In this document: positions 30,811 to 57,800 of the stretch, piece by piece
How positions within the stretch are numbered: position 1 is the stretch's first letter
How the letters are laid out: the number at the start of each line of letters is the position of its first letter
Assembly: GCA_012963885.1 (NCBI GenBank)
Contig: DTUY01000088.1
Span: 1-64,000 of the forward strand
Length of the DNA: 64,000 bases
DNA from: Candidatus Poribacteria bacterium
GTDB lineage: Bacteria; Poribacteria; WGA-4E; UBA9662
Reading direction: 5' to 3'
Translations under genes and position numbers: made by a program
The notes under the pieces: model-generated
What the model was told of the DNA's origin: nothing
Seen by the model: only the letters and a program-made list of their open reading frames with translations
The model's database searches: none

Positions 30811-33800
30811 ATGACAAGTTATGTTATAAATCGAGCTCTTTTTTCAGATTATTATCTGGATTTTGTTGTTCCAGATCTATTTGATCAAAGAAACTCCCTT
30901 GAAATTGAATTCGTATTCAACGAAATTCGACGGCTGTATAAAAAGATTCGATTGATCAAGTCAAATCTCCTTGAGGCACAAACTGAAGGGAATTTTATCC
31001 GTCCGGTGCTAGAATTGCTTGGACACCATTTTGCAGTTCAACCAACGCTTCGAACATCCCAAGGAGTAAAGAGACCCGATTATGTGTTTTTTCCCAACTC
31101 GGATGCGTTTGAATTTTCCCAACCCCGCATAAACACAAAATCTTTTTTTAAAACAGCAGTTGCTATTGGTGACGCAAAGGCATGGTCAAGAGATCTCGAC
31201 CGCAAGTACAAGAGCAGTTCAGACGCTTTCACCAATATGAATCCAAGTTTCCAAATTGATTTCTATCTACGTGAAACCGATAGAGTTTGGGGAATTCTGA
31301 CCAATGGGCGCCAATGGCGACTTTACCACCGAAATACCAGTTATCGGTTGGATCAATTCTACCAATTCAATTTGGAAGATATACTGGAGTCAGACAAATA
31401 TGACCTCGATTCATTCTGCTATTTCTATTACTTTTTCCGGCGCGAAGCCCTTGTTATCAATCATAATGGGAAATCTTTCCTTGATCAGATTTATGAAGAA
31501 AGCAAAGAACACACAGTAGGGGTTTCCGAGGACCTTGAGATTCGTGTCTATAAGGCGTTAAAGATCTTGATGCAAGGTTTCCTAGACTTCTCACGAAACC
31601 GACTTGAAGCCTCACCAGAATTAGTCCAACAAGTGCACGAAAATAGCTTAATCCTGTTATACCGGATCCTGTTTGTCCTTCATTCAGAAGTCCGGAACCT
31701 CCTGCCAATTGATAACCCTCATTATGCCAATGATCATAGTTTGTCCAAACTGGCGGCGGATGCGCATCAACGTATTGAGGAACAACGGTATATTTTGCCA
31801 ACAATGAATGACTACTGGTCACGTCTGCGAGGATTGTTCCAACTAATTAATGATGGCTGGGAAGAATTTATTCCCCAGTATAATGGTGGCTTGTTTTGTC
31901 CAAAACGTTATCCTTTTCTGGAAACATATGAAATTGGAAATCAAGCATTGACTAAGGCTTTGGATCTTGTAACTTACACTAAAGATGGCGAACGAATTGC
32001 CTACCGGGATCTAGATGCTCGCCATTTGTGGAACGTTTATCAAAGCCTACTTGACCTAAAACCTTCCTTTGAAGATAGCACCATTGATTTCATCCAACCA
32101 AAGGCCAAAAAGCGTAGCGCCAAAAATGGTCAGACCCCTGACTATATTAGTCGATATATTGTTGAACAGACTCTCGAACCGTTGTGTAAAGAAAAGGATG
32201 TTGAGGATATCTTGCAGCTTAAAGTCCTTGATCCAGCTGTTGGTAGTGGGTACTTCTTAATCGAGGTCGTTGATTTCTTGGCCGAGGAGATTGTCAAACG
32301 TGTGGACACACCGTTACCTTCTGACGTTGATTCAGAAATCAGTTACTGGCGCCGGCGCGTTGTGGAATCTTGTGTTTACGGTGTCAGTCTTGATCCCGCT
32401 GCAGTTGAGTTGGCTAAACTTTCTCTCTGGTTACATACAGTGGCAAAAAACGAGCCACTTTCGTTTCTAGATCACCATGTTCGTTGTGGGAACTCCTTAC
32501 TTGGTGCTGAAATAGTAGATTTGGCCAATCCTCCAGTTGTTGAAGATAGGCGAAGAAGAATTACATCGAGTAGTGCGCTTCAAGTCGAGCTGAATCTTTC
32601 CTTCGATTTCACGGATACCGCTGCGCGTGCGATTCAAAATTATTTGGAAATTGAGGAAACAGAGAGTAGCCACGCAATTCACATAGACCTAAAAGAACAG
32701 AGGCTTGACAGCGCCGAAGTTATGCTTCACCCCTACAAAGAAATCGCCAATCTATGGTTGAGTTGTTATTTTGGAAACGAAGTTACCAGATCTGATTATC
32801 ATTCAGTCCTCGACATGTTACAAACCAATGGATTAGAAAAAATCAAGTCCATACCCTGCTTTGCAGTAGCTCAGGAGATTGCAGAGAAAAGCTGTTTCTT
32901 TCATTGGGAGATAGAGTTTCCTGAAGTCTTCCGCGATAGATCTGGGCGGCTAAAGGAAAATGGCGGTTTTTCAGCAGTGGTGGGAAATCCTCCCTGCCTC
33001 AGACAAGAAGAAATTGGTGAGGAGAAAAAATACTTAGCGACTTATAAAACGTATAACGGTGTGGCAGATCTGTATGTGTATTTCATAGAAAGATCACATT
33101 ATCTGTTAAAGAATCGTGGGCGTTTTGGCATGGTAACCTCCAATAAGTTTATTCGCTCAAAGTACGGAAGAAATTTACGGAGATACCTTGAAACTGATGT
33201 ACAACTCTGTCAAATCATTGATTTTGGGGACTTACCTGTTTTTGAAAATACTGCGTTGATGGCTTCTATTATTTTGACAGAAAATGTGCCGTCGAAGGAA
33301 AATTTTCTGCCTCAGTATACGGAGATTGAGAGTCTTGAATTTGATTCCTTTGATACAGAGGTAAATCGCGTCTCTCGTCTTCTGGATAGCAACGCCCTGC
33401 AAGACGGAAACTGGATAGCATCACGTGTTAACGACATAGATTTTGATATTCAAGCTCGTACACTTCCACTAGGCGATTACTGTCAGGCCAAGATTCGGCG
33501 TGGCGTTATGACAGGACTAAATCAGGCATTTGTGATCAATGCCGAAACACGAAAAAAACTTATCGCTCAAGATGGGAATTCTGTTGATATACTGAAACCA
33601 CTTGTGGCAGGAAATAATATTCGGGAATATTATGTTAAATTTGAAGATTATTATTTAATCTGGGCGGTAAACGGCGTGGATATTCAGAGATATCCAGCAG
33701 TTTTTGAGCATCTCAATCGTTTCAAGGATTCGCTGGAGAACAGACGAGATAAGGGAGATCATTGGTGGGAAATAAGAAGTTGCCGTTACGCGGTAGAGTT

Positions 33801-34566
33801 TGAGATGTCAAAGATCATGTTCCCTGACTTGGGAGCAAATTGTCGATTCTGTCTGGATAAAAGTGGACTCTTTCTAATCAACAACGCCTATTTTATTGCT
33901 GAAGACGATTATTATTTGCTAGCCCTATTAAATTCTCAATTTGCTTGGGAGTATTTGAAACGAATTTGTACTAGGTTTAGGGGTAAGACTTTGCGGTTCA
34001 GCAAGCAGTATTTGGAGAAGGTGCCAATTTGCGTCATAGATTTCACGATGCCGACAAAGGAACGGAGACTTTTACTTGAAAAGGCAAAATGGCTTTATAA
34101 TAGGTGCTTGGAAAAGAATGATATTGCTTGTTTGCTTGGATTTGTAGATTATCATATTTCAGAAAAACAAGCGGATATAGTCTATGACCTTTTATCATTC
34201 CTTGCTAAAAAAATGAGCGCTGATAATTTAGCTTTATACCAGGAAAAATCTGGATTCCTCAAATGGTTGGAACGCAAGATCGGTTTTTCGGTTGATGAAC
34301 TTAAAAACAAAAGAATTATCGAAAACTATCAGCATATCAGCTTATCAGAGGTAATTTCAGTTCTCAAAAAAAATCAGAAGATGATCCCAATAGAAGTGTC
34401 AAGTCGCAATTTTCAGGAATCGGTTGAGACCGAATTCTGTATCAGTTGTGAAAGGTTACATCCCCTTTCACTCCGAGTTGTAAAAACAGATCAGCTGATC
34501 AATGAAATCGTTTTTAAGCTTTACGGCTTGACAAGTGGTCAGTTTGAAAAATCTAAAACAAAGTAG
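30811..34566 (+). CDS. Single-polypeptide restriction-modification enzyme (Type IIG, Eco57I-like)
   Basis: A 1251-aa fusion. The N-terminus has a PD-(D/E)xK nuclease pattern: RPD90YVFFP followed by AVAIGD121AK123AW. A long helical connector follows. The N6-adenine methyltransferase has motif I VLDPAVGSGYFLIEV (about 472-486) for S-adenosylmethionine and motif IV N726-P-P-C729 in VVGNPPCLRQEEIG. The usual fourth residue is Tyr, Phe or Trp, so Cys is unusual. The C-terminal third carries a TaqI-type specificity domain (RRGVMTGLNQAFVIN...ILKPLVAGNNIREY). One protein would recognise, methylate and cut DNA. No separate methylase or specificity gene is adjacent. A PglX-like phage-defence methylase was considered, but the N-terminal nuclease and lack of other BREX genes argue against it. 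It converges with folD, overlapping by 14 nt. Confidence 0.85.
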   Translation: MTSYVINRALFSDYYLDFVVPDLFDQRNSLEIEFVFNEIRRLYKKIRLIKSNLLEAQTEGNFIRPVLELLGHHFAVQPTLRTSQGVKRPDYVFFPNSDAFEFSQPRINTKSFFKTAVAIGDAKAWSRDLDRKYKSSSDAFTNMNPSFQIDFYLRETDRVWGILTNGRQWRLYHRNTSYRLDQFYQFNLEDILESDKYDLDSFCYFYYFFRREALVINHNGKSFLDQIYEESKEHTVGVSEDLEIRVYKALKILMQGFLDFSRNRLEASPELVQQVHENSLILLYRILFVLHSEVRNLLPIDNPHYANDHSLSKLAADAHQRIEEQRYILPTMNDYWSRLRGLFQLINDGWEEFIPQYNGGLFCPKRYPFLETYEIGNQALTKALDLVTYTKDGERIAYRDLDARHLWNVYQSLLDLKPSFEDSTIDFIQPKAKKRSAKNGQTPDYISRYIVEQTLEPLCKEKDVEDILQLKVLDPAVGSGYFLIEVVDFLAEEIVKRVDTPLPSDVDSEISYWRRRVVESCVYGVSLDPAAVELAKLSLWLHTVAKNEPLSFLDHHVRCGNSLLGAEIVDLANPPVVEDRRRRITSSSALQVELNLSFDFTDTAARAIQNYLEIEETESSHAIHIDLKEQRLDSAEVMLHPYKEIANLWLSCYFGNEVTRSDYHSVLDMLQTNGLEKIKSIPCFAVAQEIAEKSCFFHWEIEFPEVFRDRSGRLKENGGFSAVVGNPPCLRQEEIGEEKKYLATYKTYNGVADLYVYFIERSHYLLKNRGRFGMVTSNKFIRSKYGRNLRRYLETDVQLCQIIDFGDLPVFENTALMASIILTENVPSKENFLPQYTEIESLEFDSFDTEVNRVSRLLDSNALQDGNWIASRVNDIDFDIQARTLPLGDYCQAKIRRGVMTGLNQAFVINAETRKKLIAQDGNSVDILKPLVAGNNIREYYVKFEDYYLIWAVNGVDIQRYPAVFEHLNRFKDSLENRRDKGDHWWEIRSCRYAVEFEMSKIMFPDLGANCRFCLDKSGLFLINNAYFIAEDDYYLLALLNSQFAWEYLKRICTRFRGKTLRFSKQYLEKVPICVIDFTMPTKERRLLLEKAKWLYNRCLEKNDIACLLGFVDYHISEKQADIVYDLLSFLAKKMSADNLALYQEKSGFLKWLERKIGFSVDELKNKRIIENYQHISLSEVISVLKKNQKMIPIEVSSRNFQESVETEFCISCERLHPLSLRVVKTDQLINEIVFKLYGLTSGQFEKSKTK

Positions 34567-39336: not shown

Positions 39337-39499
39337 AATTATATTCTACTTGCCTTCAGTAATTATGTCAATCCGCTAACGGTTGATGTTTGTCATCAAA
39401 AATTTTGTCCTGCCAATGTTTAAGTTAATTCTGCTTGACAATAGGCAGAACCTTAGTCACAATATTTTTATTAAGAACGCAGAGATACAGGATTTTTAT

Positions 39500-40714
39500 A
39501 TGGATAAGGATTATAAAGTAAGAGCTTCATATTGCAATCACAGAGTTTCAGAAGAGGAAATTTATCAGACCTTAAAACGTACAACGGATTCATTAACGAG
39601 ATCATGGCAACAGATTGAGAAAGCAAGAAAAGTCGTTATTAAGTTCAATATGATGAAGCTCCCAGAACGAATTGAGTATTTTCAAGGACGGCGTCGTGAA
39701 TTAGTAGATGACGCTTTCTGCCGAGCAACCTTACGTTTGATTAAAGAGCATACTACCGCTCAATTGATTGCCACTGATACTAATCCTTACAATAATGGGA
39801 ATGTGATGCCAGCTGGATTCAACTATGAACATTACCTCAAAGAATTTGATGTCCAGTTTGTGGATTCAAGTCTGCCACCGTTCAGTGACTATGAAGTACC
39901 AAATGGCGGCTTGATGTTTAATCGATATACTTTGAGCAAGTGTTTTAAGGAATCCGATGCAATGGTGTCAGTTGCCAAAATGAAAAACCATGCTTTTATG
40001 GGAATTACACTTTGTACTAAGAATCTTTTTGGGCTTCCACCAATAATTCCACCCGAAGGGCGCGCAAGAAGCTATTATCATCATTTGGTCAGGCTTTCCT
40101 ATGTGTTGCCGGATCTCGCTCTAATTACCAAACCTTGTCTCAACATTATTGATGCTTTAACAGGACAATCGGGACGTGAATGGGGTGGAGAAGGTCGGGT
40201 TTGTAACGCAATGATTGCAGGAGATCATCCGATTGCGACAGATGCATGCGGCATGTACCTGATGGGAACTGATCCGAAGTCGGATTGGCCAACCCCACCG
40301 TTCAAGCGAGATCGAAACCATATTTTAATTGCCGCCCAACGCGGCTTTGGTACAGTTGATCTGGAGCAGATTGATTTTGAGAGTGAAGTCGCCCCTCCTC
40401 TGGCTGATTTTGACTCGGTTGAAACGGATTCACCTGAAATGGTTCGCAACTGGAGACTAACAACTTGTCAACAAGGCATGGCGTATCTTGAAAATCAAAA
40501 GCAATTGATCGATAAATACCGCGGCCAGTTCATCTATATGCAGGCAGGTGAAGTCGTCTGGAATGGTCCAGACCCATCGGATTTGGGAAGTCGCCGTCAA
40601 TTAAGCGGTGGAAAAAAGGACAGCGCACTTTGGCTCAAATTAGTTGATCCTGAGGAACATGAAGGCGAAAATTTTAATGTCTATGAAAGACTCTTATCAG
40701 ATTTTGCCGCTTAA
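39500..40714 (+). CDS. DUF362 domain protein
   Basis: A 404-aa protein matching the DUF362 family. The characteristic central block is VSVAKMKNHAFMGITLCTKN then LFGLPP, followed by CLNIIDALTGQSGREWGG and GDHPIATDACGMYLMG. An upstream ATG at 39385 or so is in frame, but the ATG at 39500 (MDKDYKVRASY) has AGGA about 8 nt before it and removes a poorly conserved N-terminus. Family members sometimes carry ferredoxin domains; none is seen here. Function is unknown; proposed as a redox or cofactor-dependent protein. The next gene overlaps its 3' end by 32 nt, so they are translationally coupled. Confidence 0.78.
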   Translation: MDKDYKVRASYCNHRVSEEEIYQTLKRTTDSLTRSWQQIEKARKVVIKFNMMKLPERIEYFQGRRRELVDDAFCRATLRLIKEHTTAQLIATDTNPYNNGNVMPAGFNYEHYLKEFDVQFVDSSLPPFSDYEVPNGGLMFNRYTLSKCFKESDAMVSVAKMKNHAFMGITLCTKNLFGLPPIIPPEGRARSYYHHLVRLSYVLPDLALITKPCLNIIDALTGQSGREWGGEGRVCNAMIAGDHPIATDACGMYLMGTDPKSDWPTPPFKRDRNHILIAAQRGFGTVDLEQIDFESEVAPPLADFDSVETDSPEMVRNWRLTTCQQGMAYLENQKQLIDKYRGQFIYMQAGEVVWNGPDPSDLGSRRQLSGGKKDSALWLKLVDPEEHEGENFNVYERLLSDFAA

Positions 40715-43328
40715 AGCGCACACAATTCTTCTGATTTCCATCTTCATTTTGGCCCAGTCCGGACTCGCCAGTAACCAAGCACTGATCGTTGGTGGTGCTG
40801 GTGGCGATAAGTCTTTTTATGATCGTTTCTGGAAGGCGACTTCCAGTTTCTATAATCTGCTTGTCCAAAGATATAGTTACTATCCTGACCAGATTACCTT
40901 CCTGTTTGAAGACAATGGTGAAGATCCTGCTATAGTCGATGGTAAATCGACGAAACTCAACATCGAGAATGCACTCGGCCAAATTGCTAATAATATTAAT
41001 GAGTCCGACCGGTTTACAATGTTTTGGGTTGGGCATGCCAACAAATCTGATACGAATCTCAGACTGAACCTGCCGGGTCGTGATCTTTCCCTGCCAGTTT
41101 GTACTCAACTCATCAATAATATCATTGCTAAGGAAATGGTATTAATCTTTGATTTTCCGTTTAGTGGCCTAATAATTCCATTGCTAGAACGGGAAAATCG
41201 ATTGGTTGTCACCTCATGTACCGCACGTGAACGGCACGCGCGATCTAGATTTTCCAATCTTTTTATCGAGACACTTGAAAGTAAACTCCCAACTATCTCA
41301 TTAATGGATGTCTTTACAGCAACACAAGATCTAGTGAAGACATGGTATGAAAATGATGGTGCATATCAATCTGAACATCCACAGATCAGTAGCAGCGGAT
41401 TGATGATCTCACTTGGCGACGCTGCGACTACACTACAGTTGGTTGGAGCACCTGGTGAGGACAGAATTGATAATATTATCAAGAATGCCAGAAATCAAGA
41501 GTATCCGCCTGGTTTAATGGCGGTTGTTTTATGGGAGTCCGACACTTTTGATGTCAATGAGGATTCAAGCTATGAACATAGAAGGCGCCGCATCGTGCAG
41601 ATTCTGAATAAAGATGGGGAGAAGTTTGGCACAGTCTCTATTCCTTACACGCGCAATAATGATGATATTACTATTCACCACGCTTGGACTCTGCAAATGA
41701 ACGAGGATAAGATCAATCTTGACGACTCAAGCATCACCAAGGATCTAGTGCCACCGGAAGCGGTTGAGGCAGGCATGTTCGTCGATGCTAGATTGCAGCA
41801 ATTCACCATGCCGGAAATGTCAGAGAGATGTGTTATCGATTACGAATATTCGTCAAGGGCTCGCGATCAGCTACTGCGGGGCGATTTTTGGAATCAAATC
41901 TATTTTCAGGCCGAGGTGCCAATCAAAAATTATCGGTTAATTGTGAAAATACCGAGCAAAAAGAGATTACATTATGCAATACATGGACCGAATATTGAGC
42001 CAAGTATCGTTGAAACTAAACATTCACGAACTTATACTTTTGAGAGTGCCGATATACCTGCCTTATACAAGGAACCATTAATGCCGGCAATCAAGGATGT
42101 CGCATATTCTATTAGCCTATCTTCACTTGATTCTTGGGATAGGTTGATTAAATGGTATCTGACATTAATCCGTGAACAGGATCAAGCCACTCCGGAAATT
42201 GAGGAGAAAACCAAGATGTTGGTATCTGGCGCGTTTACTCAAGAAGAAAAAATTAAACGTCTCTACCAATTTGTAGCCGCCAACATTAGGTATGTAGCAA
42301 TTGAGCTCGGTATATGGGCTATTAAACCCCATACAGCATCACGCATCTTGGAAGAAGGATATGGCGATTGTAAAGATAAATCGACACTACTCCGTACTAT
42401 GCTAGCAGTGGCTGGTATTAAGTCGTATCCAGTACTTATTTCCGCTGGAGAATCAAGACGTATCGTTCGCGAAATCCCATCACTTTCTTATTTCAACCAT
42501 ATGATTTTGGCGGTAGAAGAAGATGGGAATGGAGATCTAATCTGGTTAGATCCGACAGCGGAGACATGCGCCTATGGGGATTTGCCCTCCGGGGACCAAG
42601 ACCGCTGGACCCTTGTACTGGACCTTTCTGCCAACAACTCAAGTCAAGATCGAGAATCATATCGGTTTTTGAAAAGTCCAGCAGCTACGGCGGATCGAAA
42701 TTTGAAGCGAATTAAAACTGAAATCCGTGTAGCGGGTGATTTGTCGATTAAAGTGAGTCAGGAAATAACACTGACAGGAGACTTTAATACCAGAGTTCGA
42801 AACCGATTGAAACATAGTGATCATCAAGTATTTTTACGTGAGTTTATAAACTTTAACGATCGAGCGGAGCTAATTCGGTTTGATACGTCTAATTTGAGCG
42901 AAGTATCACCACAATTCAAAATCTGGTTAGAATGGAATTGTGCTGATTATGTATTTGCTATTGGACGACAATTTGTATTGAATTTTCCATTTGTTGATTT
43001 GCCCCATGCTGAGCTGGTAGGAAACGATCAACGTGTAAATCCAGTTTTGCTTGGCGAAGCCGCTACTTTTGAAGAAGATATTTCTCTTAGTCTAGCACAT
43101 CAATTTCAGATTGAAAGTTTCCCCGACGACCTCCAGATTCGAAATCAAATCGGGGCTCTGAATGTTTCCGTATCGAAACAAAGACGAAGTGCATCTATCA
43201 AGCGTACAATCCAGTTTGATAACTCGATGATACCTGCGAATCAGTTCAGCAAAATGATCGCAATTCTCAAAGCAGCATCGGGAAAAGAAAACACGCGAGC
43301 ATTGCTAAGCAAAAATATGGGAAAGTGA
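40683..43328 (+). CDS. Secreted fusion: caspase-like domain lacking the nucleophile + DUF3857 + transglutaminase
   Basis: An 881-aa protein from the ATG at 40683 (earlier in-frame starts exist at 40644 and 40677). It opens with a signal peptide (AHTILLISIFILAQSGLA) and then a C13/caspase-like domain (NQALIVGGAGGDKSFYDR onwards). His118 in FWVGHAN is kept, but the nucleophile position reads FDFPFSG with Pro159 in place of the Cys of 'DACYSG', so protease activity is not expected. About residues 290-480 are DUF3857-like. A transglutaminase-like domain follows with an intact triad: Cys563 (GYGDCKDKS), His606 (YFNHMIL) and Asp623 (WLDPTAE). It overlaps the DUF362 gene by 32 nt and is followed 9 nt later by MoxR. 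Likely an envelope protein acting on a peptide or protein bond. Confidence 0.83.
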   Translation: MKDSYQILPLKAHTILLISIFILAQSGLASNQALIVGGAGGDKSFYDRFWKATSSFYNLLVQRYSYYPDQITFLFEDNGEDPAIVDGKSTKLNIENALGQIANNINESDRFTMFWVGHANKSDTNLRLNLPGRDLSLPVCTQLINNIIAKEMVLIFDFPFSGLIIPLLERENRLVVTSCTARERHARSRFSNLFIETLESKLPTISLMDVFTATQDLVKTWYENDGAYQSEHPQISSSGLMISLGDAATTLQLVGAPGEDRIDNIIKNARNQEYPPGLMAVVLWESDTFDVNEDSSYEHRRRRIVQILNKDGEKFGTVSIPYTRNNDDITIHHAWTLQMNEDKINLDDSSITKDLVPPEAVEAGMFVDARLQQFTMPEMSERCVIDYEYSSRARDQLLRGDFWNQIYFQAEVPIKNYRLIVKIPSKKRLHYAIHGPNIEPSIVETKHSRTYTFESADIPALYKEPLMPAIKDVAYSISLSSLDSWDRLIKWYLTLIREQDQATPEIEEKTKMLVSGAFTQEEKIKRLYQFVAANIRYVAIELGIWAIKPHTASRILEEGYGDCKDKSTLLRTMLAVAGIKSYPVLISAGESRRIVREIPSLSYFNHMILAVEEDGNGDLIWLDPTAETCAYGDLPSGDQDRWTLVLDLSANNSSQDRESYRFLKSPAATADRNLKRIKTEIRVAGDLSIKVSQEITLTGDFNTRVRNRLKHSDHQVFLREFINFNDRAELIRFDTSNLSEVSPQFKIWLEWNCADYVFAIGRQFVLNFPFVDLPHAELVGNDQRVNPVLLGEAATFEEDISLSLAHQFQIESFPDDLQIRNQIGALNVSVSKQRRSASIKRTIQFDNSMIPANQFSKMIAILKAASGKENTRALLSKNMGK

Positions 43329-43337
43329 AGAGAAAAC

Positions 43338-44345
43338 ATGTCGGTAACAGAAGAAATTCAAGCTATTGATAAATTAATGTTAGGGAAAGAAGCAATCTTG
43401 AAGCAAATGAGGAAAGTGATTGTTGGTCAAGAAGACACGATAGATCAAATCCTAATGGCATTTTTCGCTGGCGGACATTGTTTATTGGAAGGTGTGCCTG
43501 GATTAGCTAAGACTTTAATAATTAAGACAATTGCCAATATTATTGATCTGGATTTCAAGCGAGTACAATTCACCCCAGACTTAATGCCAACGGATATTAC
43601 CGGTACAGATATACTTGAAGAAGATAAAGCTACAGGTCGGCGTGAAATTCGTTTTATTCGCGGCCCGATATTTTGCAATATTTTGCTAGCTGACGAGATT
43701 AACCGGACACCTCCAAAAACACAAGCCGCTTTACTGGAAGCGATGCAGGAATTCCATGTAACTGTCGGTGGAAATATGCTTGAATTAGACAAACCTTTTT
43801 TTGTGTTGGCTACACAAAATCCGATTGAACAAGAGGGAACATATTCGTTACCAGAAGCCCAATTGGATCGCTTTATGTTCAAGATCGTCATCGACTATCC
43901 TGAGGAGAAAGAAGAAATCCAAATCATTTCATCCACAACTGGCATTGAGCAGCCGAATCCCGAACGTGTGATGTCTGGGGAAGACATTATTAGCCTCAAT
44001 CAGGTTGTGCGACGAGTACCAGTTGCTGAAAATGTTGTCCAGTATGCCGTTAAAATAGTACGAGCAACGCGTTCTGGAAACAATTATGTGCCTGATTTCG
44101 TCACCAAATGGGTGCGTTGGGGCGCTGGACCACGGGCGGGGCAGTATTTAATTCTTGGTGCCAAAGCTCGGGCAATTATGCTTGGTCGATTCAATGCTTC
44201 GTGCGAAGATATTCGATCCGTGGCTCACTCGGTTTTACGACATCGGATCCTCACAAATTTTAATGCGGAAGCCGAAGGCATCGATTCAGATGCCGTAATT
44301 GATATGCTTCTTGAGGCTATAGAGGAGCCGTCTGCCCAATGGTAA
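43338..44345 (+). CDS. MoxR-family AAA+ ATPase
   Basis: A 335-aa AAA+ chaperone-like ATPase. Walker A GVPGLAKT (52-59), Walker B ILLADEINRTPPKTQAALLE, sensor 1 in VLATQNPIEQEGTYSLPEAQ and arginine-finger region LDRFMF are all present. MoxR proteins help mature extracellular or metal-containing proteins and usually sit beside DUF58, VWA and transglutaminase (TgpA-like) genes. Here the transglutaminase fusion is 9 nt upstream, but no DUF58 or VWA gene follows. Confidence 0.93.
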   Translation: MSVTEEIQAIDKLMLGKEAILKQMRKVIVGQEDTIDQILMAFFAGGHCLLEGVPGLAKTLIIKTIANIIDLDFKRVQFTPDLMPTDITGTDILEEDKATGRREIRFIRGPIFCNILLADEINRTPPKTQAALLEAMQEFHVTVGGNMLELDKPFFVLATQNPIEQEGTYSLPEAQLDRFMFKIVIDYPEEKEEIQIISSTTGIEQPNPERVMSGEDIISLNQVVRRVPVAENVVQYAVKIVRATRSGNNYVPDFVTKWVRWGAGPRAGQYLILGAKARAIMLGRFNASCEDIRSVAHSVLRHRILTNFNAEAEGIDSDAVIDMLLEAIEEPSAQW

Positions 44346-44589: not shown

Positions 44590-44625
44590 ACCCACTTTCG
44601 CAGACTTGCGAAAGTGGGTTTTTTT
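44590..44625 (+). terminator. Strong rho-independent terminator
   Basis: ACCCACTTTCGCA (44590-44602) and TGCGAAAGTGGGT (44607-44619) form a perfect 13-bp stem with a GACT tetraloop, followed by a run of seven T's (44619-44625). The stretch from here to 44978 shows no convincing gene; it holds only the leader of the next gene. Confidence 0.92.
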
Positions 44626-47173: not shown

Positions 47174-50100
47174 ATGCCAACGATTCGAATTTTACCAATC
47201 CTTATCTTAGTTTTCGTTGGTTCCGCAAACGCTGTTACCGTTTCCTTGCGCGGCAATGAATCTCAAAGCTCGACTTTTAAAACGCAGATTGGCGAACTGT
47301 TTAAGGTTGATATTTTTGTTGAACCGAAAGGTAAATCAATTGCTGGATTTTCCATATTTCTTTCTTTTGACAATCAATTTCTTGACATAGTTGATTCGGA
47401 TCCTGTTAGGGTGGGAACGCAACCGGTGAAAATAAGCCGAGAGGTTCCGGAAAACTGGAGGGTGTTCGATAACGATACCCATGCTGATCCAGGTAATGGC
47501 ATAGATCTATTTCAAATTGACTACGTCCAAACCTCAATTGGCGGTGGCGATTTGATCACAGATCCGACTGTTATTGGACAACTAACCTTCAAACCTAGTC
47601 TAGCAACATCATCGACTTCCATAGTGTTCGATGCCGACATATCTATATCGCGTGTTACTGAGATTACCTTTGTCAATGCGGAGAACAATCAACAGCAAGC
47701 CGCATTCTCAAAAGTGTCGCCTGCTGTGATATCAGTCGGTGGTGGACCGTTGCTTACTAAGACTTTCCCCCCAATTCGTCTTTTGTTAGGGGAAAGCGAT
47801 AAGTCACTTAATCTCAATGATTACGTCACCGATTCTAACGACTCTAATGATCTTCTCACATGGTCAGCTGAAGGTGACCACATAGCGATTGAGATTAATC
47901 AGTCAACGCATCTAGCAATACTTTCCGTCAGTGATAAGTTTGTTGGCACAACCGAAGTACTATTTACGGTAAAAGACCCCAAAGGTAATAGCGCTTTTGG
48001 CATAGCACAGGTCACGGTTGTGTCGGCCCCCCAAATTTTGCCGTTTCCAAAGATTAATTCTCGGGTTGGAAAAACTAAGTCGATTAATCTTGGTAATTAT
48101 GTGGTTGATCATGATTCGCCAGATCTTAAAGGTTTAAGTTGGGAAATTAGTCAGGGATCAAAGCTCCTCGATCTCAACTTAAGCCGTGGTATCCTGACTG
48201 TGCGTGGTAAAGTAATACAAATTGATCCAGCTGTAGCAATTGCTTTGAAGGCAACTGACGCAGATCAACACAGTACCATAGCGCCACTTTTTATCTCCAT
48301 TTTTTCAGATCAGGAGGCGTTAGTAATCAAAGAAATACCGGAGGTCATTGTAACCAATGTGGGGCAAATGATTACGCCAGTCACGGGTATAATACTTGAC
48401 GATTATGTTTTCGATATCGAATTTCCTTCCAATCGCATGAGTTGGACATTCGATCAAAGTCAGAATTTGGTACTTGACATTAATCTGGAAAGCCGAAGAT
48501 TCCATATATTGAAATCGAAAAATGGTTGGATTGGTACCGAGAAGGTAACGCTCCGCGCGACTAATCCAAGTGGGAAGGCAGTTGCCACTTCAATAGATGT
48601 AAGAGTAATCGAAGCTGGTGCACCTCCAATTCTATCTGAAATTCCTGCTATGAAACTGCTAGTTAATGATGGAAGTAAGGTTGCGGAAAATCTGAAAACT
48701 CTTCAACTTAATTTAAAGAAGTATGTTTTAGACTATAACCATACTCCTAAAGAGATGAAATGGGAATCTAGTGATCATCAATTAGTTAAGGTCAACATTA
48801 ATCCACAGGGAATAGCAACAATCTCTGCTGATCAAGAAACAACAGAGATGATCAGAGTCTACGCTGTAGATCCAGACGGGAATCGGGACAGTACTAGATT
48901 CATCGTCACAGTTATTAACCCGGCTACACCCACTATTAAAGCTTTGCCTGCAATTCGGCTCAGGTCGGGTGAAAGCATCCAACCATTTGATCTTGATGAT
49001 TTTGTAACAGATATCTTTACACCGGATGAACGGATCATATGGAAATCTGAAGGTTTTGATCCAAGGAACCTACTTGTTGAGATTGATAAGCAAAGACGAG
49101 TGAAATTTACGGCTAAATCGACATGGCACGGCACAGAAACTGTCAAGTTGACAGCAACCAACGAAGCAACCTTATTTCAAACTGTGCCAATTAGCGTAGT
49201 TGGCACGGCTAGACCGAAAATCACCTTTAAAACTGACAAACTCGAGATTGGTGAAGGGTGGCGAGTCATAATTAATCTGGACACAATTGTTAATGATCCG
49301 GATACTGAGAAAGATAAACTCAATTGGAAAATCGAACCGATTAAAATCTTATCGGCTCTCGTTAATCCAGTCAGCCGAACCTTAGTTATTGAAGCACCGA
49401 AAAAATCAGCAGGCAATTACAAATTGAACCTCTCCGTTATCGATCCGGACGATAATAATGACGCAGCCCCTTTTTCGGTAGCAGTCGTTAATTATAGCAA
49501 GTCAAAGCCAGTAATTACTGAACTCAACAAAATCTCCTTCCGGAGCGATCAGACATATTCACTTCCATTGGATAAAGTTATCGTTGATAAGGATACACAG
49601 CTCGACCGAATCGCTTGGAGGATATTGGGTAATAAAAAAGTCAAGGTAAGTATCGATCCGGGGAGACAGATATCTTTCTCGGCTCTTTCCAAGGATTTCG
49701 AAGGGACAGAACTAATTACCTTGATAGCAACAGATCCGGAGGAGCAATCGGATAAAAAAAGTGTTCTTATTACTGTCGTTCTGCCACCGCAAACACCTAT
49801 AATTAAAGAATTTCCGGAAATCAATATTCACCAAAAAGAGATAGATAACAGTCTTAAGTTGCCAGATTACGTTTCGGATCGTGACACACCGTTTGAAAAA
49901 CTCAAGTTCACAATTGTCAACCAAGTTCATACTGCCGTTAAGCTCGATTTGGAATCGAAGACTTTGGTTATTACTTCTGCCGACAAAGAAGTGGGTAAGG
50001 AGGAAGTAACGTTGGTGGCGGAAGATCCTGAAAAGAATCGGGCAAGTCAAACAATTGTCATTAATGTTGCCAAATCTCCGCCTATTGAACCGCCCACGTT

Positions 50101-51610
50101 GCTAGAGTTTCCTGTGCTGTCTATTAAGCTATCCGAGTTGCTGGACGCTAAACCATTTACTATAAAACTTGATGATTTTGTTCAGGACAAAGACACAGAT
50201 AAGAAAAGTCTAAACTGGAGTATCAATGAAGGATCGGATAATGTCAAAGGAGAGATTGAATCGAAAACTCGGGTCGCGACAATTACGATTCTTAAAAAAG
50301 ATTTTACTGGGGATGAAGGATTATCGATCAAAGTCAGCGATCCAGAAGGGAAAGAGGCCAAAGGCAAAATTCAGGTGACCGTGATTGATGATAGTCCCAA
50401 GCCCCCCCAAATTGTTGATTTGCCAAGTCAGATCACCTTCAAATGCGGTATTCCAGAGGTGTCCCTAGATCTTAGTAAGTACGTGAAGGATCCGGATAGC
50501 CCAATGGACAGCCTAAAACTAACATTGAGTTCAGAGTCAAAAAAGATATTGATTGAGGATATAGATCCATTATCGCAAATCGTTAAAATTGCACCGGTAT
50601 CGGATTTTACTGGAGCTGAAGTTCTTACCTTTACTGTCACAGACCCAGGTGGGTTAACTGCTACAGATCAGTTACCTGTCTTCATTGAGGCGACTGGTGT
50701 TGATAGCAATCCGCCTGTTTTACCTGCTTCGATATCAATTGAAATCACGCCAGACAAACCTCAATCTGTCAATCTAAATGAAATAGTCTTTGACGCTGAC
50801 ACTCCAACATCGCGGATTAGTTGGTCTTGGGAAAGTAACGAGAAATTTGACTTTGAGGTCAACGAGGAAACAAAAATCGGACAACTCACGCTCAAAAACA
50901 TGTATCAAGACTTCCGTGGTACTGAATCAATTCCGTTATCAGCAGAAGATCAGGAATGTGGAAGTGCTTCAACTATACTGAGAGTCACAGTTCTGGATCC
51001 TCCGGATACAACACCTCCGAGTTTCACAATTTACTTACTGCCGAATCCCATTCAACCCGATTTTTTGACTGTAAACGTACAAGCATCCGAGCAACTCAAA
51101 ACAAGACCTAAACTGAAGATCAACGATGAAAACGTGCCCATTCAGCCGAACGGAGATGTGCCACTAACATGGAGTAGTATCTACATCGTGCCGAAAGACT
51201 TCGTAGGATTGATTGAATTCATCGTCACCGGTGAAGATACCGCAGGGTTAAGCAAGACAGAATCAAAAATCCTTGAACGCAGCGCGTTACCATCAGCACC
51301 TAAAGAACCACGGGTAAGATTGACAAAACTGTTCCCGAACTATCCAAATCCGTTTAATCCTGAAACTTGGATTCCCTACCAGCTAGCTGAATCATCAAAT
51401 GTGATAATCAAAATATACTCCGATTCTGGATTCTTAGTTAGGGAGCTCAACCTCGGGTATCAACATGCTGGATGCTACATTGACCGCAACAAGGCTATCC
51501 ACTGGGATGGTCGAAACAGTTTGGGGGAAGTTGTCGCCGCCGGTCTTTATTTCTATCAACTGATAGCTGATGACTTCACCAAAACTCGACCTGCCTTGAT
51601 TGTTAAGTGA
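47174..51610 (+). CDS. Large secreted protein: cohesin-like domain plus eleven beta-sandwich repeats and sorting tail
   Basis: A 1478-aa protein with a signal peptide (IRILPILILVFVGSANA) and GAGGAAGA just upstream. About residues 20-190 form a cohesin-like domain (ELFKVDIFVEPKGKSIAGFS, IDLFQIDYV). Eleven repeats of about 100 residues follow, each of the form 'P.I...P.I.L..G....L.L..YV.D.D.P...L.W......V.......L.......GTE.V.L.A.DP.G', a cadherin/Ig-like unit. The C-terminus has LFPNYPNPFNPETWIPYQLA, then the FlgD-like sandwich ending GLYFYQLIADD...ALIVK. This tail is nearly identical to that of the protein at 26363. It probably forms a long extracellular rod that presents the cohesin-like head. 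No catalytic motif was seen. Confidence 0.82.
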   Translation: MPTIRILPILILVFVGSANAVTVSLRGNESQSSTFKTQIGELFKVDIFVEPKGKSIAGFSIFLSFDNQFLDIVDSDPVRVGTQPVKISREVPENWRVFDNDTHADPGNGIDLFQIDYVQTSIGGGDLITDPTVIGQLTFKPSLATSSTSIVFDADISISRVTEITFVNAENNQQQAAFSKVSPAVISVGGGPLLTKTFPPIRLLLGESDKSLNLNDYVTDSNDSNDLLTWSAEGDHIAIEINQSTHLAILSVSDKFVGTTEVLFTVKDPKGNSAFGIAQVTVVSAPQILPFPKINSRVGKTKSINLGNYVVDHDSPDLKGLSWEISQGSKLLDLNLSRGILTVRGKVIQIDPAVAIALKATDADQHSTIAPLFISIFSDQEALVIKEIPEVIVTNVGQMITPVTGIILDDYVFDIEFPSNRMSWTFDQSQNLVLDINLESRRFHILKSKNGWIGTEKVTLRATNPSGKAVATSIDVRVIEAGAPPILSEIPAMKLLVNDGSKVAENLKTLQLNLKKYVLDYNHTPKEMKWESSDHQLVKVNINPQGIATISADQETTEMIRVYAVDPDGNRDSTRFIVTVINPATPTIKALPAIRLRSGESIQPFDLDDFVTDIFTPDERIIWKSEGFDPRNLLVEIDKQRRVKFTAKSTWHGTETVKLTATNEATLFQTVPISVVGTARPKITFKTDKLEIGEGWRVIINLDTIVNDPDTEKDKLNWKIEPIKILSALVNPVSRTLVIEAPKKSAGNYKLNLSVIDPDDNNDAAPFSVAVVNYSKSKPVITELNKISFRSDQTYSLPLDKVIVDKDTQLDRIAWRILGNKKVKVSIDPGRQISFSALSKDFEGTELITLIATDPEEQSDKKSVLITVVLPPQTPIIKEFPEINIHQKEIDNSLKLPDYVSDRDTPFEKLKFTIVNQVHTAVKLDLESKTLVITSADKEVGKEEVTLVAEDPEKNRASQTIVINVAKSPPIEPPTLLEFPVLSIKLSELLDAKPFTIKLDDFVQDKDTDKKSLNWSINEGSDNVKGEIESKTRVATITILKKDFTGDEGLSIKVSDPEGKEAKGKIQVTVIDDSPKPPQIVDLPSQITFKCGIPEVSLDLSKYVKDPDSPMDSLKLTLSSESKKILIEDIDPLSQIVKIAPVSDFTGAEVLTFTVTDPGGLTATDQLPVFIEATGVDSNPPVLPASISIEITPDKPQSVNLNEIVFDADTPTSRISWSWESNEKFDFEVNEETKIGQLTLKNMYQDFRGTESIPLSAEDQECGSASTILRVTVLDPPDTTPPSFTIYLLPNPIQPDFLTVNVQASEQLKTRPKLKINDENVPIQPNGDVPLTWSSIYIVPKDFVGLIEFIVTGEDTAGLSKTESKILERSALPSAPKEPRVRLTKLFPNYPNPFNPETWIPYQLAESSNVIIKIYSDSGFLVRELNLGYQHAGCYIDRNKAIHWDGRNSLGEVVAAGLYFYQLIADDFTKTRPALIVK

Positions 51611-51840: not shown

Positions 51841-54800
51841 ATGTTAGGCTCCAAAAGATTATTTCTAAGTGTCCTTTTTCTTGTTTTGATCCCTTTTTTT
51901 GCATATGCACAGCAAACTCCGGAAACTAGAATTATTAGCGGTGTCAGCGGAACAGTTTCACACGGAGATGTTGTTTTTATGTGGATGGGACAATCTACGG
52001 ATAGACCTATTCTTGGCTATTACTACACCTTGGGAAATGCTGAGCCTGTCTTTACTGATGCAACTCAGGTTACTTTCTTCGATCTGTTCGATGGCATTTA
52101 CTCTTTTTCTATCAGTGCAATTGATATTGATGGGGTTATTGATCCGACACCAGCTTTTGAAAACTTCCAAGTTAGTCGTAACGTCCAACTGGAAGTTGAA
52201 TTTAATGGACAGAGCAATTTCGCAAATTACCTTCAGAGCGGCAGAATTCTGCAAGGTATGAGTCTGAATCAGCATGATGACGATTGGTATAAATTCGATG
52301 TTTCCAACGTAGGTGCCATTACTGTCAGTTTAAAACGAGTGGGAGGCACTGGATTAGCTACGGCAAAGATTTATCAAAAGATTGCTTCCGACGCTAACAA
52401 GATAGCAGAATTTCATATTGATCAGCAGAATGCCCAGCGTCAGATAATGACCATCGGTGTTGCTGAGGGTAGCTATTTTATTCAGATCCAGCCGGGTATT
52501 GTTGATTTCGATTTTACGGGTTATACGCTTGCTGTTTCACCAAACAAACTGGGAGATGGCGTAGCTTGGGATGTTGAAAATAATGATACATTTGCTGATG
52601 CGTCCCCTTTGAAGTTTCCTGCGAATCAGCAACTTACCCTTATCGGCAGTCAAAATAGCATAGGTGATCTCGATTGGTTTACACTTCAGATTTTGCGACG
52701 ACAGAAACTCAAGGTTATCTTTGAGCGTCTCGGGGCATCCAGCCAAACAATGACCTATCTATACCGATCACCAGTGGGGAACGAGGTCAGTCGACAGGTC
52801 GGTCTACTGGAAGCGACTACCCTGAACGGGCATTTTGCTCAACTTGAAACCTACGTTGCTCCGGGTAACTACCTCTTCAAAATAGACAATGGGACTTTCC
52901 AAGAAGCTATAAACTATATTGTTCTGCTCCAGTTGGAAGAAATAGGAGTGGGAATGATCACCGAGTTTGAACCGAATAATATCTCTCCTTTATTGAATCC
53001 GAACAGTGCTGATCGTATTAGTTTGGGAAAAACGCTTGTCGGGTCAAGTTGGAATGGGAATGAAGACATAGATTGGTTCCAGATCAGCATACCAAATCTA
53101 GATCGTTTAGATCAGAGTATTCTCCATATTAGTTTTGAGCGTTCGCTAGGAATTGGTTCAACACGATTAGAGGTTTTTAGTCACAGCGGTATCAAAGTCG
53201 GTGAACTGAAGATTTCTGCCCAAAACGATCAAAGCGGTCAACTTTCGGTGCCAGTAAACAACCGGACGCTAATTCTTCGGTTGACTCCAACTCATGAATC
53301 AGCTATGGCAGACTATAGGCTTCGACCAACATTGATCAAATCTGCTCGTCATTTGGCAGAAAAGGCACTGGTCCTAGATGAAAAGTTGATAGTTGAAGTC
53401 AAGTTAAGCCAATCTGTGAGTGCAGCAACTTTTGACCTAATCGGTGATTTCACCTCGCCTTCCGCAGATTTTCGGACGAAAAATATCCCGTTGATTGCAA
53501 CAGAATCCTCTGGTAATGACACCGCTCTAACAGGTAGTTACCAAATGTTATTAGGTGATGATGCTACTTCGGTGACTGTTATGGTTAAACTCACGGACTC
53601 GGATAATCGAATCCTCAATATCAATTTGCCCAATCAGATTGAAATCGATACAACCGTCCCTGAAATTAAGCTTTTAGAACATAATGGACGTGGAGTTCTT
53701 ATAGCTGGGGACCAATTGGAAGTTGTGCTTCACGGTGATGTTGAAGATGTAGAAGCCTCTGTCGAAATTATCGATGCTGAAACCGGATTTAAAGCCGTAA
53801 AGATCCCGATGAAACGAATAGATAACAACTGGCAGGCTATCTACCAGGTGAAGCCCAGCGACACCATTAAGAATGGGATTGTTGTCGCCCGGTTAACTGA
53901 TGATGCCGGAAATACGGCAACAGTACAGACCCAGCGACAAGTGAATTTAATAGGGAAATCTCCCAAAATTATATCGGCAGATCACGACGCAGACCTGCCA
54001 TTGGGACTTGGTCAAACGTTAACAGTCACAATGGTTGCGACGACTAATGGAACTGCTACGTTTTCGATTAATGACCCAATTTCTATGACCGGCGATGGAC
54101 AAGGCGTTTACGTGGGCAGGTATATTGTGCAGGAAGGGGATCAACTGAAAGACGCAAAGATTAGCATCGGTTTTGTTGATCAAAGCGGTCAAAGGGTTGA
54201 CATCGAAGTTTCTAAATCACTGACCATCGACGGCAATTTGCCTGAATCTGTCCGTGTGCTGGAAGCAGTGGATGTGCCAGACGATCAAGGATTTAGGATA
54301 TATCTTAAGTGGGAACCTTCTGTCGATCCGACACTTTCACACTATAACGTTTACTTGTCAGACCGACCAATCCGAGAGGTTGGTAAACCCATACTTGGAA
54401 ACCTCAAGACAACAAGTACTGTCCTAAGTGTTCCATTAAATAATGTTCCGTTTTACATAGCCATCACGGCTACCGACAGTGTGGGTAACGTGTCTCGTAT
54501 ATCTGCTGAATCTGTGGTGAATAGAGTCAAGACAATTGACAATCTACCACCTAATCCTGTCGTGCTAGTATCTGCTATCGACACGCCAGATGATGCGGGC
54601 AAGAGTGTTACTGTGTCTTGGACACATCCGAGTTTTGATTCCGATTTTCATAAATATAGAATTTACGCTTCTGAACTATCTCCAACCAATTCCTCCGCGG
54701 TTCTTGAACTCCAATCTGAAATCTTTAACGTCGCCTTAACTTCAGTTGACGTGTCAACTGTTATTGATAACAAAGACCAGTTTTTTTTAGTCACTGCTAT

Positions 54801-57800
54801 TGATAAATCTGGCAATGAATCGGCTATTGTTGAGGGTGCCATCTCCGCAGCGACACATTCGACTGCTAATGTTATTTTAGATTCCGATGGATTGCTTCGT
54901 TTTCAGACAGCGCCGATCGGCCTCATTCATTACAATTCTCCCTCTTTCCGATGGAGTTCGTTTCGGTCTGAGACGAAGTACCGTTATCAATTGGATCAGC
55001 ACTCGCCCCGGATCATAAACGCCACCAAACTTCTGCTCAGGGATCTAGCACCAGGTAGTCACCAATTGCGGGTCGAAACCCTAGACGGAAAGCAATCGGT
55101 AATCAGACGATTTTCTGTTTCTGATTCATTGCTTAGTGAAAACGAGCCCAACAATAATTCTGATCAAGCTAATAATCTGCCACTCAACTGGGAAATTCGA
55201 GCTGATGCAGCTGATATCGATTTTTATCAGATTCAAGTAGAACATAAGGGGGTCTTAGACATCTATCTCGGTCGAAACATCTCCCCATTAACAATCACTG
55301 TTTATCGAGGGCAGCAACCTATTGCCGTTGGTCAAGTCCAGCCGAACAAGTTAAGTCCTATCAGCATCGGCGTGTTGCCCGAATCCTATCTAGTAGTTGT
55401 AGAGAATGATAGTCAAGCTGTTAGTCTCTACAGTTTAAGCACGCAGTTTACAATCAGCGAAGTGTGGGAAACTGAGCCCAATGATCAGGTTGCTTCCCCA
55501 ATGCCAATTGACACTGTCATCAGAGGCTCTCAGACCAGACAAGGAGATCGGGATCTTCATCGGCTTCAGCTGAACCAAGCCGGTTTGCTGGTTGTCAACG
55601 TAACCAGTGAAGATGAGAACCCAAACATGGAACTCATTCTCAAAGATGAGACAGGTGTTGTTGGCCGATCCAAGGAATCTGTCATGACTGCAGAGGTAAA
55701 AAGTGGAACATACTTTTTAGAGATTACTCCCGAAAGCGAATATCGTTTGATAGCCACACTTGTTGAGCGTGCCAATTTCTGGATTGATGATGGAACCAAA
55801 AACCCACCCAGGAACCTGCTACGATCTGGCGATAGTCTAGTTGTTGATATCAGCTGGCATGGTGAAACCAGTTTTTCACTTGACGGGGTAACATCAGAGG
55901 TCGCACTAAAAAATCCCGCCAGCATCAAGATTCCTAACAATCTGGACATTTCGGATGTGTCAATTGGGGTTACACTGGTAAACAGCCGTCAAAACGCTAT
56001 TCATTTTGAACTTTCACCGCCTCTTGAGATTCATACAACTACCCCAAATAGCATTCAAAACCTTGTAGCCTTTGATACGCCGGACGACGCTGGAGGGAAT
56101 GTTACGCTGTCATGGGCACGTCCTGGCGACCTAGCTAATCTAGCAGGATACAAAATCTACCTGTTTGATGAAGGTCCAGAAGAAGATCCATCAGCATCCA
56201 GGCTTGAATCTGAAGTAAATGATCCGTTAATAACCCAAATTAGCATTTCAACGGATGTTGATGACATTGATCTTTTTTTTGCTGTAATCGCTGTGGATTT
56301 GTACGGCAACGAGTCTAAAATCACAGATTCATCAACCGATGGTCCAGTGCGATCCACCAATAACAAGATGCCACCGAACATTATTTCTGCCCGCCATAAC
56401 GCAACTAAAACTTTGGTTAATGGTGACATTTTAAATGTCGAATTAACTGGTGATAGATCTAAGACTGCTAGTTTCTCAATTACAGGTGTTGTTGAAAACA
56501 TAAAGTTGTTTGACGATGGCAAACATGACGATAAAGAAGCTAACGATGGTCATTATGCTGGGAGTTATCAGGTAAAACCGAAAGATCTTGCCATCAATAC
56601 ACTGGTTGAAGTGACATTGAATGACGGTAAAGGGAATCATGCGACTCAAGCTGTAGCACCTACGATATCTGTCGATGCAATACCACCGCGAATTAAAGAA
56701 TTGGCTCATGATGCTAAAACGCCATTGAAAGCTGGAGATACCCTCAGTATCAGTTTACTTGCTGAATCGAATATAATCGTGAAGTTTGAAATTGTTGATA
56801 AGGACAGAATAGTAATTGACACCAATCGGTTTAGTCTCGTCCAAAACATTCAACTTGAAGACAACCAGAAACCGGATGGGGATAAAGCCTTTACAATGCC
56901 GATGATAGATTTCCGCTCATCATTGGTTATTCAAGAAGGGGATGATTTAACAGACGGACATGTACGGGCTACGGTGCAGAAACTTACTGGCAAGGCGATC
57001 ATTTTGATGTCAACCACGGCGCTGACCGTCGATACAATTTCTCCGGACAAGGTTGCCGATCTGACTGCTGTTGATCGGCCGAGTGATCAAGGGTATGTTG
57101 TTCGTCTCTCTTGGCAGGCAAATCAAAATTCGGATTTTGACCACTACCGAATCTATCTGAGCAACACCCCAATTTCTCCCTATTCCCTAGAGTCAATCAA
57201 ATTTTTAACTACTAAAACCGAATCTGAAATGGTTAAGGTCGAACAGAATAATGCTGATATTTACTTGGCTGTAACAGCAGTTGATGTAGCAGGTAACATC
57301 CAACAAGACCTGTCTATGGTAACAACGCAAGCGATTGATAATATTCCGCCGGTACCAGTACAGATTGTTCTAGCAACGGACAGTCCAAACGATTTTGGAG
57401 GTCAGGTAACCTTAGCACTGCGATCGCCTAACTTCGAACCCGATTTTGCTGGTTACCGTGTCTACGTTTCAGGAGATAAGATTGCGGCAACTCAAGGGTT
57501 GAGACCTATTCTGACCATTCCTGATCGAAACCTGGTTAACATAGATGTACCGTCACCAAGTGATAAGCAACCCTATTTTTATGCCATTACAGCTATCGAT
57601 ACCTCAGCCAACGAATCGCAACTTAACACCGGTTCTGTGACACTAGCTATTCAATCTGCTAACAACATCGGACGTGAGATAGAAAATCCTGTCCAGATTG
57701 TCAGTGGACCGATTGGTACTGTACGACGAAAAGCGGTCACTTTCCACCTTTTTAGTATGGCTGAGTCACCAATCGTATTTAGTTTGAATAACCAACCGCT

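Follow-up and report, generated by a model that had tools for sequence, protein, structure and literature searches.

A Cys-less clan CD domain fused to a transglutaminase-type enzyme beside a MoxR ATPase gene in Poribacteria

In Candidatus Poribacteria, a gene that encodes a transglutaminase-superfamily protein fused to a caspase-like domain without its catalytic cysteine is followed by a gene for a MoxR ATPase (here named MoxR-A), and this fusion–MoxR pair is conserved over much of the phylum, in sponge-associated as well as related members. The locus was analysed in a stretch of 64,000 nucleotides (the window), corresponding to contig C88 of a 6.8 Mb assembly. The preferred interpretation, for and against which the case is evenly balanced, is that of an envelope module resembling the Bat and TgpA systems, composed of an exported thiol enzyme and a dead binding domain that share a pathway with MoxR-A. 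The initial annotation had proposed an envelope system linking a DUF362 protein, the fusion, and MoxR; the dead protease domain and the conserved MoxR neighbourhood stood up to analysis, but the DUF362 partnership did not.

Gene layout and the conserved neighbourhood

Three genes on the same strand, encoding in order the DUF362 protein, the fusion, and MoxR-A, overlap or lie 9 bp apart, and their coordinates (Table 1) confirm the near-touching arrangement described initially. The 5' end of the fusion gene lies within DUF362, the overlap being 11–38 nt according to the start codon chosen. The residues that were first named, Pro159, Cys563, His606, and Asp623, are exact when counted from the ATG at 40683 and become Pro161, Cys565, His608, and Asp625 when counted from the ATG at 40677. 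Because of the gene overlap, the 9 bp gap, the promoter-like site, and the strong terminator-like hairpin, DUF362, the fusion, and MoxR-A are likely to form a single transcription unit in the window genome; promoter-like sites as a whole are not clearly more numerous than in shuffled sequences, and the site at 39435–39463 is a consensus match only.

Table 1. Features of the DUF362–fusion–MoxR-A locus (positions in the window)
Feature	Position	Strand	Details
Promoter-like site TTGACA-17-CACAAT, 5' of DUF362	39435..39463	+	consensus match 10/12
DUF362 protein, 404 aa	39500..40714	+	ATG 39500, stop 40714; PF04015 E 8.6e-26
Fusion protein, 883 aa from ATG 40677	40677..43328	+	alternative starts ATG 40683, TTG 40704
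Signal peptide of fusion	40677..40772	+	read from sequence by eye; no lipobox Cys
Cys-less clan CD (C13/caspase-like) domain, ~residues 34-236 of fusion	40776..41384	+	profile, predicted fold, alignment
His120, pseudo-active-site His	41034..41036	+	52/52 orthologues (numbering from ATG 40677)
Pro161 at catalytic Cys position	41157..41159	+	Pro 46, Gln 6, Cys 0 among 52
Flexible linker of fusion	41385..41481	+	pLDDT <50 at model residues 212-231
DUF3857 domain of fusion	41562..42062	+	E 9.4e-26
Transglutaminase core with Cys565, His608, Asp625	42219..42551	+	Transglut_core E 5.7e-6; each residue 53/53
DUF3858 domain of fusion	43023..43286	+	E 1.8e-6
MoxR ATPase (MoxR-A)	43338..44345	+	AAA_3 E 2.4e-62; 9 bp 3' of fusion
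Intrinsic-terminator-like hairpin	44590..44619	+	13 pairs, 7 GC, then TTTTTT

Elsewhere in the window, a 1251-aa protein (30811–34566) reads like a fused restriction-modification enzyme with an NPPCLRQ methyltransferase-like motif, and two apparently secreted proteins of great length, 1478 and 3368 aa, are encoded at 47174–51610 and 51841–61947, respectively; the C-terminal tail of the former, starting NYPNPFNPETWIPYQL, is of a kind seen in sorting domains.

The first protein of the locus belongs to the DUF362 family, and its orthologues align over residues 1 to 404. Adjacency of DUF362 to the fusion is confined to the window genus, where it recurs in the one other genome (L037/L008); in nearly all other genomes the orthologue (77–81% identical) is unlinked to the fusion, lying elsewhere on the chromosome near PhyH, ArsR, and ferredoxin genes. 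In the large family f4, the orthologue is near-universal (76–80% identical) but far from the fusion. A conserved third member was thus rejected as a general rule, and DUF362 is mostly a local neighbour of the pair. In genome G024 of the sister genus, MoxR-A, an SQHop/TED-like alpha-toroid gene, and DUF362 stand in a row (L125 5551–8796, contig C476), the fusion being located on a different contig; this arrangement hints weakly at an older cluster in the family. As a separate observation, a recurrent cluster of ArsR-like regulator, ferredoxin, and DUF4381-like genes adjoins DUF362 in family f4 (L155 8923–10815) and MoxR-A in genome G015 (L126 2308–4511). A literature search on DUF362 turned up only its clan relation to LarA.

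The identity of the third protein as a MoxR ATPase is given by its AAA_3 and AAA_lid_2 (E 9e-14) matches, together with the Walker A (GVPGLAKT) and Walker B (LLADE) motifs read in the sequence. MoxR-A, whose members share at least 70% identity, forms a group distinct from the four other MoxR paralogues of the window genome, and its tree follows the species groups; the node uniting the whole group has moderate support. A search with the full-length fusion matched 82 of the 85 Poribacteria genomes; a true fusion is present in about 67 of them and only a paralogue at ~30% identity in the others. MoxR is the next gene 3' of the fusion in 42 of the 49 orthologous loci, across a gap of 10–371 bp (median 113); the adjacency is beyond chance, and the survey of relatives suggested in the initial annotation therefore finds the neighbourhood conserved as far as fusion and MoxR are concerned. 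The genes upstream are unrelated, namely DUF362 in the window genus and an FGGY-type kinase and MoaC in family f4, with MoxR located 3' in both. The loci outside this pattern belong to family f3, where 109 and 257 kb lie between the fusion and MoxR-A, to the sister genus (L043/G024), to the lineage that lacks the N-terminal domain, and to a single short contig.

Across the 85 genomes, 65 contain both genes, 16 contain neither, and 4 are mixed, for which the Fisher p of 3e-13 is overstated because the states are clustered in the phylogeny (mostly in one clade) and the events are not independent. MoxR-A was not detected in G019 and G005, which carry the fusion, nor was the fusion detected in G018, which carries MoxR-A; the joint absence in G047 was rejected as evidence of co-loss, since the neighbouring MoaC is missing there too. 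Both genes have the appearance of core genes passed on by vertical descent. No such fusion was found in a plasmid collection, and a contig scan with the full fusion, the reach of which is limited to close relatives, gave 49 of 49 matches in Poribacteria.

A somewhat improbable alternative to a shared envelope pathway is that the fusion and MoxR-A are only conserved or co-transcribed neighbours with no common mechanism, the fusion being a stand-alone periplasmic protein of the DUF3857 type. The unlinked genes of f3 and G024 fit such an arrangement, as do the different compartments predicted for the two proteins, the wide occurrence of DUF3857-transglutaminase proteins elsewhere, and a paralogue in the same genome (L121) that has no MoxR nearby. 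However, the adjacency is held in two families despite their differing upstream genes, transglutaminases and MoxR are established operon partners, and the family of the N-terminal domain also occurs in a MoxR-DUF58-BatA operon of another phylum, all of which speak for a functional connection.

The fusion protein and its dead N-terminal domain

Pfam alone does not detect a clan CD domain in the window fusion, with C14 scoring 16.6 bits against a cut-off of 21.4 and C13 reaching a best E of 9e-4 and matching 2 of 51 members. The domain was recognized by other means; the AlphaFold2 model of the N-terminal domain (pLDDT 91, pTM 0.91) matches legumain, metacaspase, and PIGK in Foldseek (E 4.5e-10, TM ~0.73), and a profile of 51 orthologues finds metacaspase-1 in the PDB (E 8e-5). 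The region is accordingly predicted to adopt the caspase/legumain fold of clan CD cysteine peptidases, as had been presumed from the sequence. It differs from those peptidases in its catalytic dyad, of which the histidine is kept in all 52 orthologues covering the site and the cysteine in none, having given way to proline in 46 and glutamine in 6; the missing cysteine thus turns out to be a stronger feature than first claimed, and the domain is not an active member of the clan. The model places the invariant Gly-His pair and the proline each after a core strand, in the order of the catalytic His and Cys of the fold. The alignment at this position was checked independently against remote clan CD members from the phylum, whose own cysteine falls here, within EACYSG (L161, L162) or DCCFSG (L163). 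A sequencing or assembly artefact is ruled out by the 52 orthologues from many assemblies, and decay of a useless domain is ruled out by the dN/dS of 0.15 obtained when the window is compared with its nearest relative, the other domains of the fusion giving 0.09–0.20 by the same method. Because the cysteine is absent and the histidine kept throughout under purifying selection, the N-terminal domain is an old, fixed pseudoenzyme with a clan CD (legumain/metacaspase) fold.

Several variants of this domain were encountered. The lineage L045/G016 has lost it, providing a natural deletion (L130 6293–8596) in which MoxR-A and the DUF362 orthologue are also missing; at L056 7971–11848, it is partly duplicated in tandem over two consecutive open reading frames, possibly through an assembly effect. 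In family f4, a second exported caspase-like protein of ~550 aa (L159 6426–8087 and L160 967–2598) is likewise Cys-less and adjoins a sulfatase-like gene, with a PEGA domain in L159. A literature search on Poribacteria and caspases gave nothing relevant.

The C-terminal half consists of DUF3857, Transglut_core, and DUF3858 domains, all over the Pfam cut-off, and the complete transglutaminase triad that had been noted is intact in 53 of 53 orthologues. Its sole solved relative, the uncharacterised putative protease BDI_1141 (PDB 3kd4; Foldseek E 1.3e-35, TM 0.71 on the target), shares the DUF3857-transglutaminase arrangement and is devoid of a clan CD domain; NCBIfam returned no name for the fusion, and no paper on DUF3857 combined with transglutaminase was found. 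Judging from the sequence, crosslinking, peptidase, and amidase chemistries may all be compatible with this half. A hydrophobic leader, which stops just before strand 1 in the orthologues with the N-terminal domain, and the lack of a lipobox indicate that the fusion is probably exported.

The linker that joins the two halves spans ~100 aa in most relatives and is shorter in the window protein. In the full-length model (pTM 0.62), the packing of the domains is not firmly defined, and the Foldseek matches of this model to OST48/Wbp1 (E 1e-9) were dropped at a TM of 0.14 and an rmsd of ~19 Å. The paralogue L121 of the same genome is a TPR-DUF3857-transglutaminase protein, and, since TPR stands where the fusion has its dead domain, the N-terminal module appears to be an exchangeable interaction part. 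The same exchangeable position, along with the presence of both domains on one chain, could be taken to mean that the dead domain is a pro-domain or lid regulating the transglutaminase domain intramolecularly instead of binding a substrate; this is considered quite unlikely in view of the flexible, low-confidence linker, which is longer in most relatives, and of the ill-defined domain packing in the full-length model. It is very unlikely that the domain, instead of being inert, retains a role other than proteolysis at its former active site, such as ligand or calcium binding; the invariant His and Ser136 and the EF-hand-like DxNxDG motifs of most relatives would suit this function, but the DDNGDG tail is absent from the window protein and L037.

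Relation to known MoxR systems and proposed role

MoxR-centred envelope systems such as Bat and TgpA are widespread, and MoxR and transglutaminases are known as operon partners in the MoxR-DUF58-transglutaminase (TgpA) arrangement. The Bat-type relation emerged from a tblastn search with the Poribacteria N-terminal domain, which gave one plasmid homologue in Gemmatirosa kalamazoonensis (NZ_CP007129, E 2e-18) that has the whole domain in common, including a DDNGDG-type tail, with serine in place of the cysteine. The genes there are arranged as VWA - dead C13 - TPR - DUF4159 - MoxR - DUF58 - BatA (the TPR label was read from the sequence); the pseudo-C13 gene (L086 9044–10911) spans two frames, and the record may hold a frameshift. 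This operon resembles the Poribacteria pair in its MoxR ATPase and the same Cys-less C13-like family, whereas its dead domain is encoded by a separate gene with no DUF3857-transglutaminase attached. In neither the window nor the examined Poribacteria loci was a DUF58 or VWA gene found next to the pair. The window genome also possesses a separate Bat-type operon (L117; C14:1–12832) with MoxR, DUF58, VWA-like, VWA/TPR-like, BatD-like, and TPR-like genes, the MoxR of which is 46% identical to MoxR-A.

In the TgpA operon of Pseudomonas aeruginosa, PA2875 is a MoxR ATPase and PA2874 a DUF58 protein. PA2875-PA2874-PA2873 are reported to be co-transcribed, the Transglut_core triad is intact, the periplasmic transglutaminase domain of TgpA is active in vitro, and tgpA is critical for viability (PMC3507681). 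The fusion locus is alike in having a periplasmic-type Transglut_core domain with an intact triad; in contrast, TgpA is a six-helix membrane protein with neither DUF3857 nor a caspase-like domain, and the Poribacteria pair has no adjacent DUF58 gene. The fusion, therefore, combines two kinds of partner known from MoxR operons, namely a dead C13 domain and a transglutaminase.

MoxR also occurs with caspase domains, many of the effectors being inactive, in the MoxR-vWA ternary conflict systems (Kaur et al. 2020, PMC7159879), and a conflict or immune module of this sort is hardly credible here: the gene lists of the examined loci contain no vWA, VMAP, or iSTAND partner, the ternary set being a vWA partner plus a VMAP, iSTAND, FtsH, or propeller component, the fusion carries an export signal, the genes appear to be vertically inherited core genes, and PADLOC gave no match, so a defence system was rejected.

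Returning to the envelope module that is preferred here, we infer a catalytic activity, a binding role, an envelope location, and a functional coupling to MoxR as follows. The fusion would belong to the transglutaminase superfamily as an exported thiol enzyme with peptidase or acyl transferase activity in the cell envelope, and its dead clan CD domain, tethered to the enzyme domain, would bind a protein or peptide and direct or regulate that domain. The fusion and the cytoplasmic MoxR-A would then share one pathway, a variant derived from the MoxR envelope-maturation modules (Bat and MoxR-DUF58-TgpA). Because the fusion has a signal peptide and MoxR has none, direct contact between the two after export is unlikely; coupling may instead proceed through a membrane or VWA/DUF58-type intermediary, before export, or on a common client. 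The separate predicted compartments count against this interpretation, as do the non-adjacent genes of f3 and G024 and the lack of a DUF58 or VWA gene beside the pair. A bolder proposal, regarded as fairly improbable, is that the catalytic cysteine was lost before the Poribacteria families split and that the domain was retained to aim an exported transglutaminase-type enzyme, fusing the periplasmic partners of both types of MoxR operon (the dead C13 of Bat and the TgpA-like transglutaminase), so that the MoxR machine would govern the crosslinking or processing of envelope proteins.

The natural fusion of two periplasmic parts of MoxR systems suggests that dead C13 and transglutaminase domains act on the same thing. 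Moreover, the N-terminal domain of the fusion offers an example, open to testing, of how a protease fold has turned into a non-catalytic module and is kept so across a phylum.
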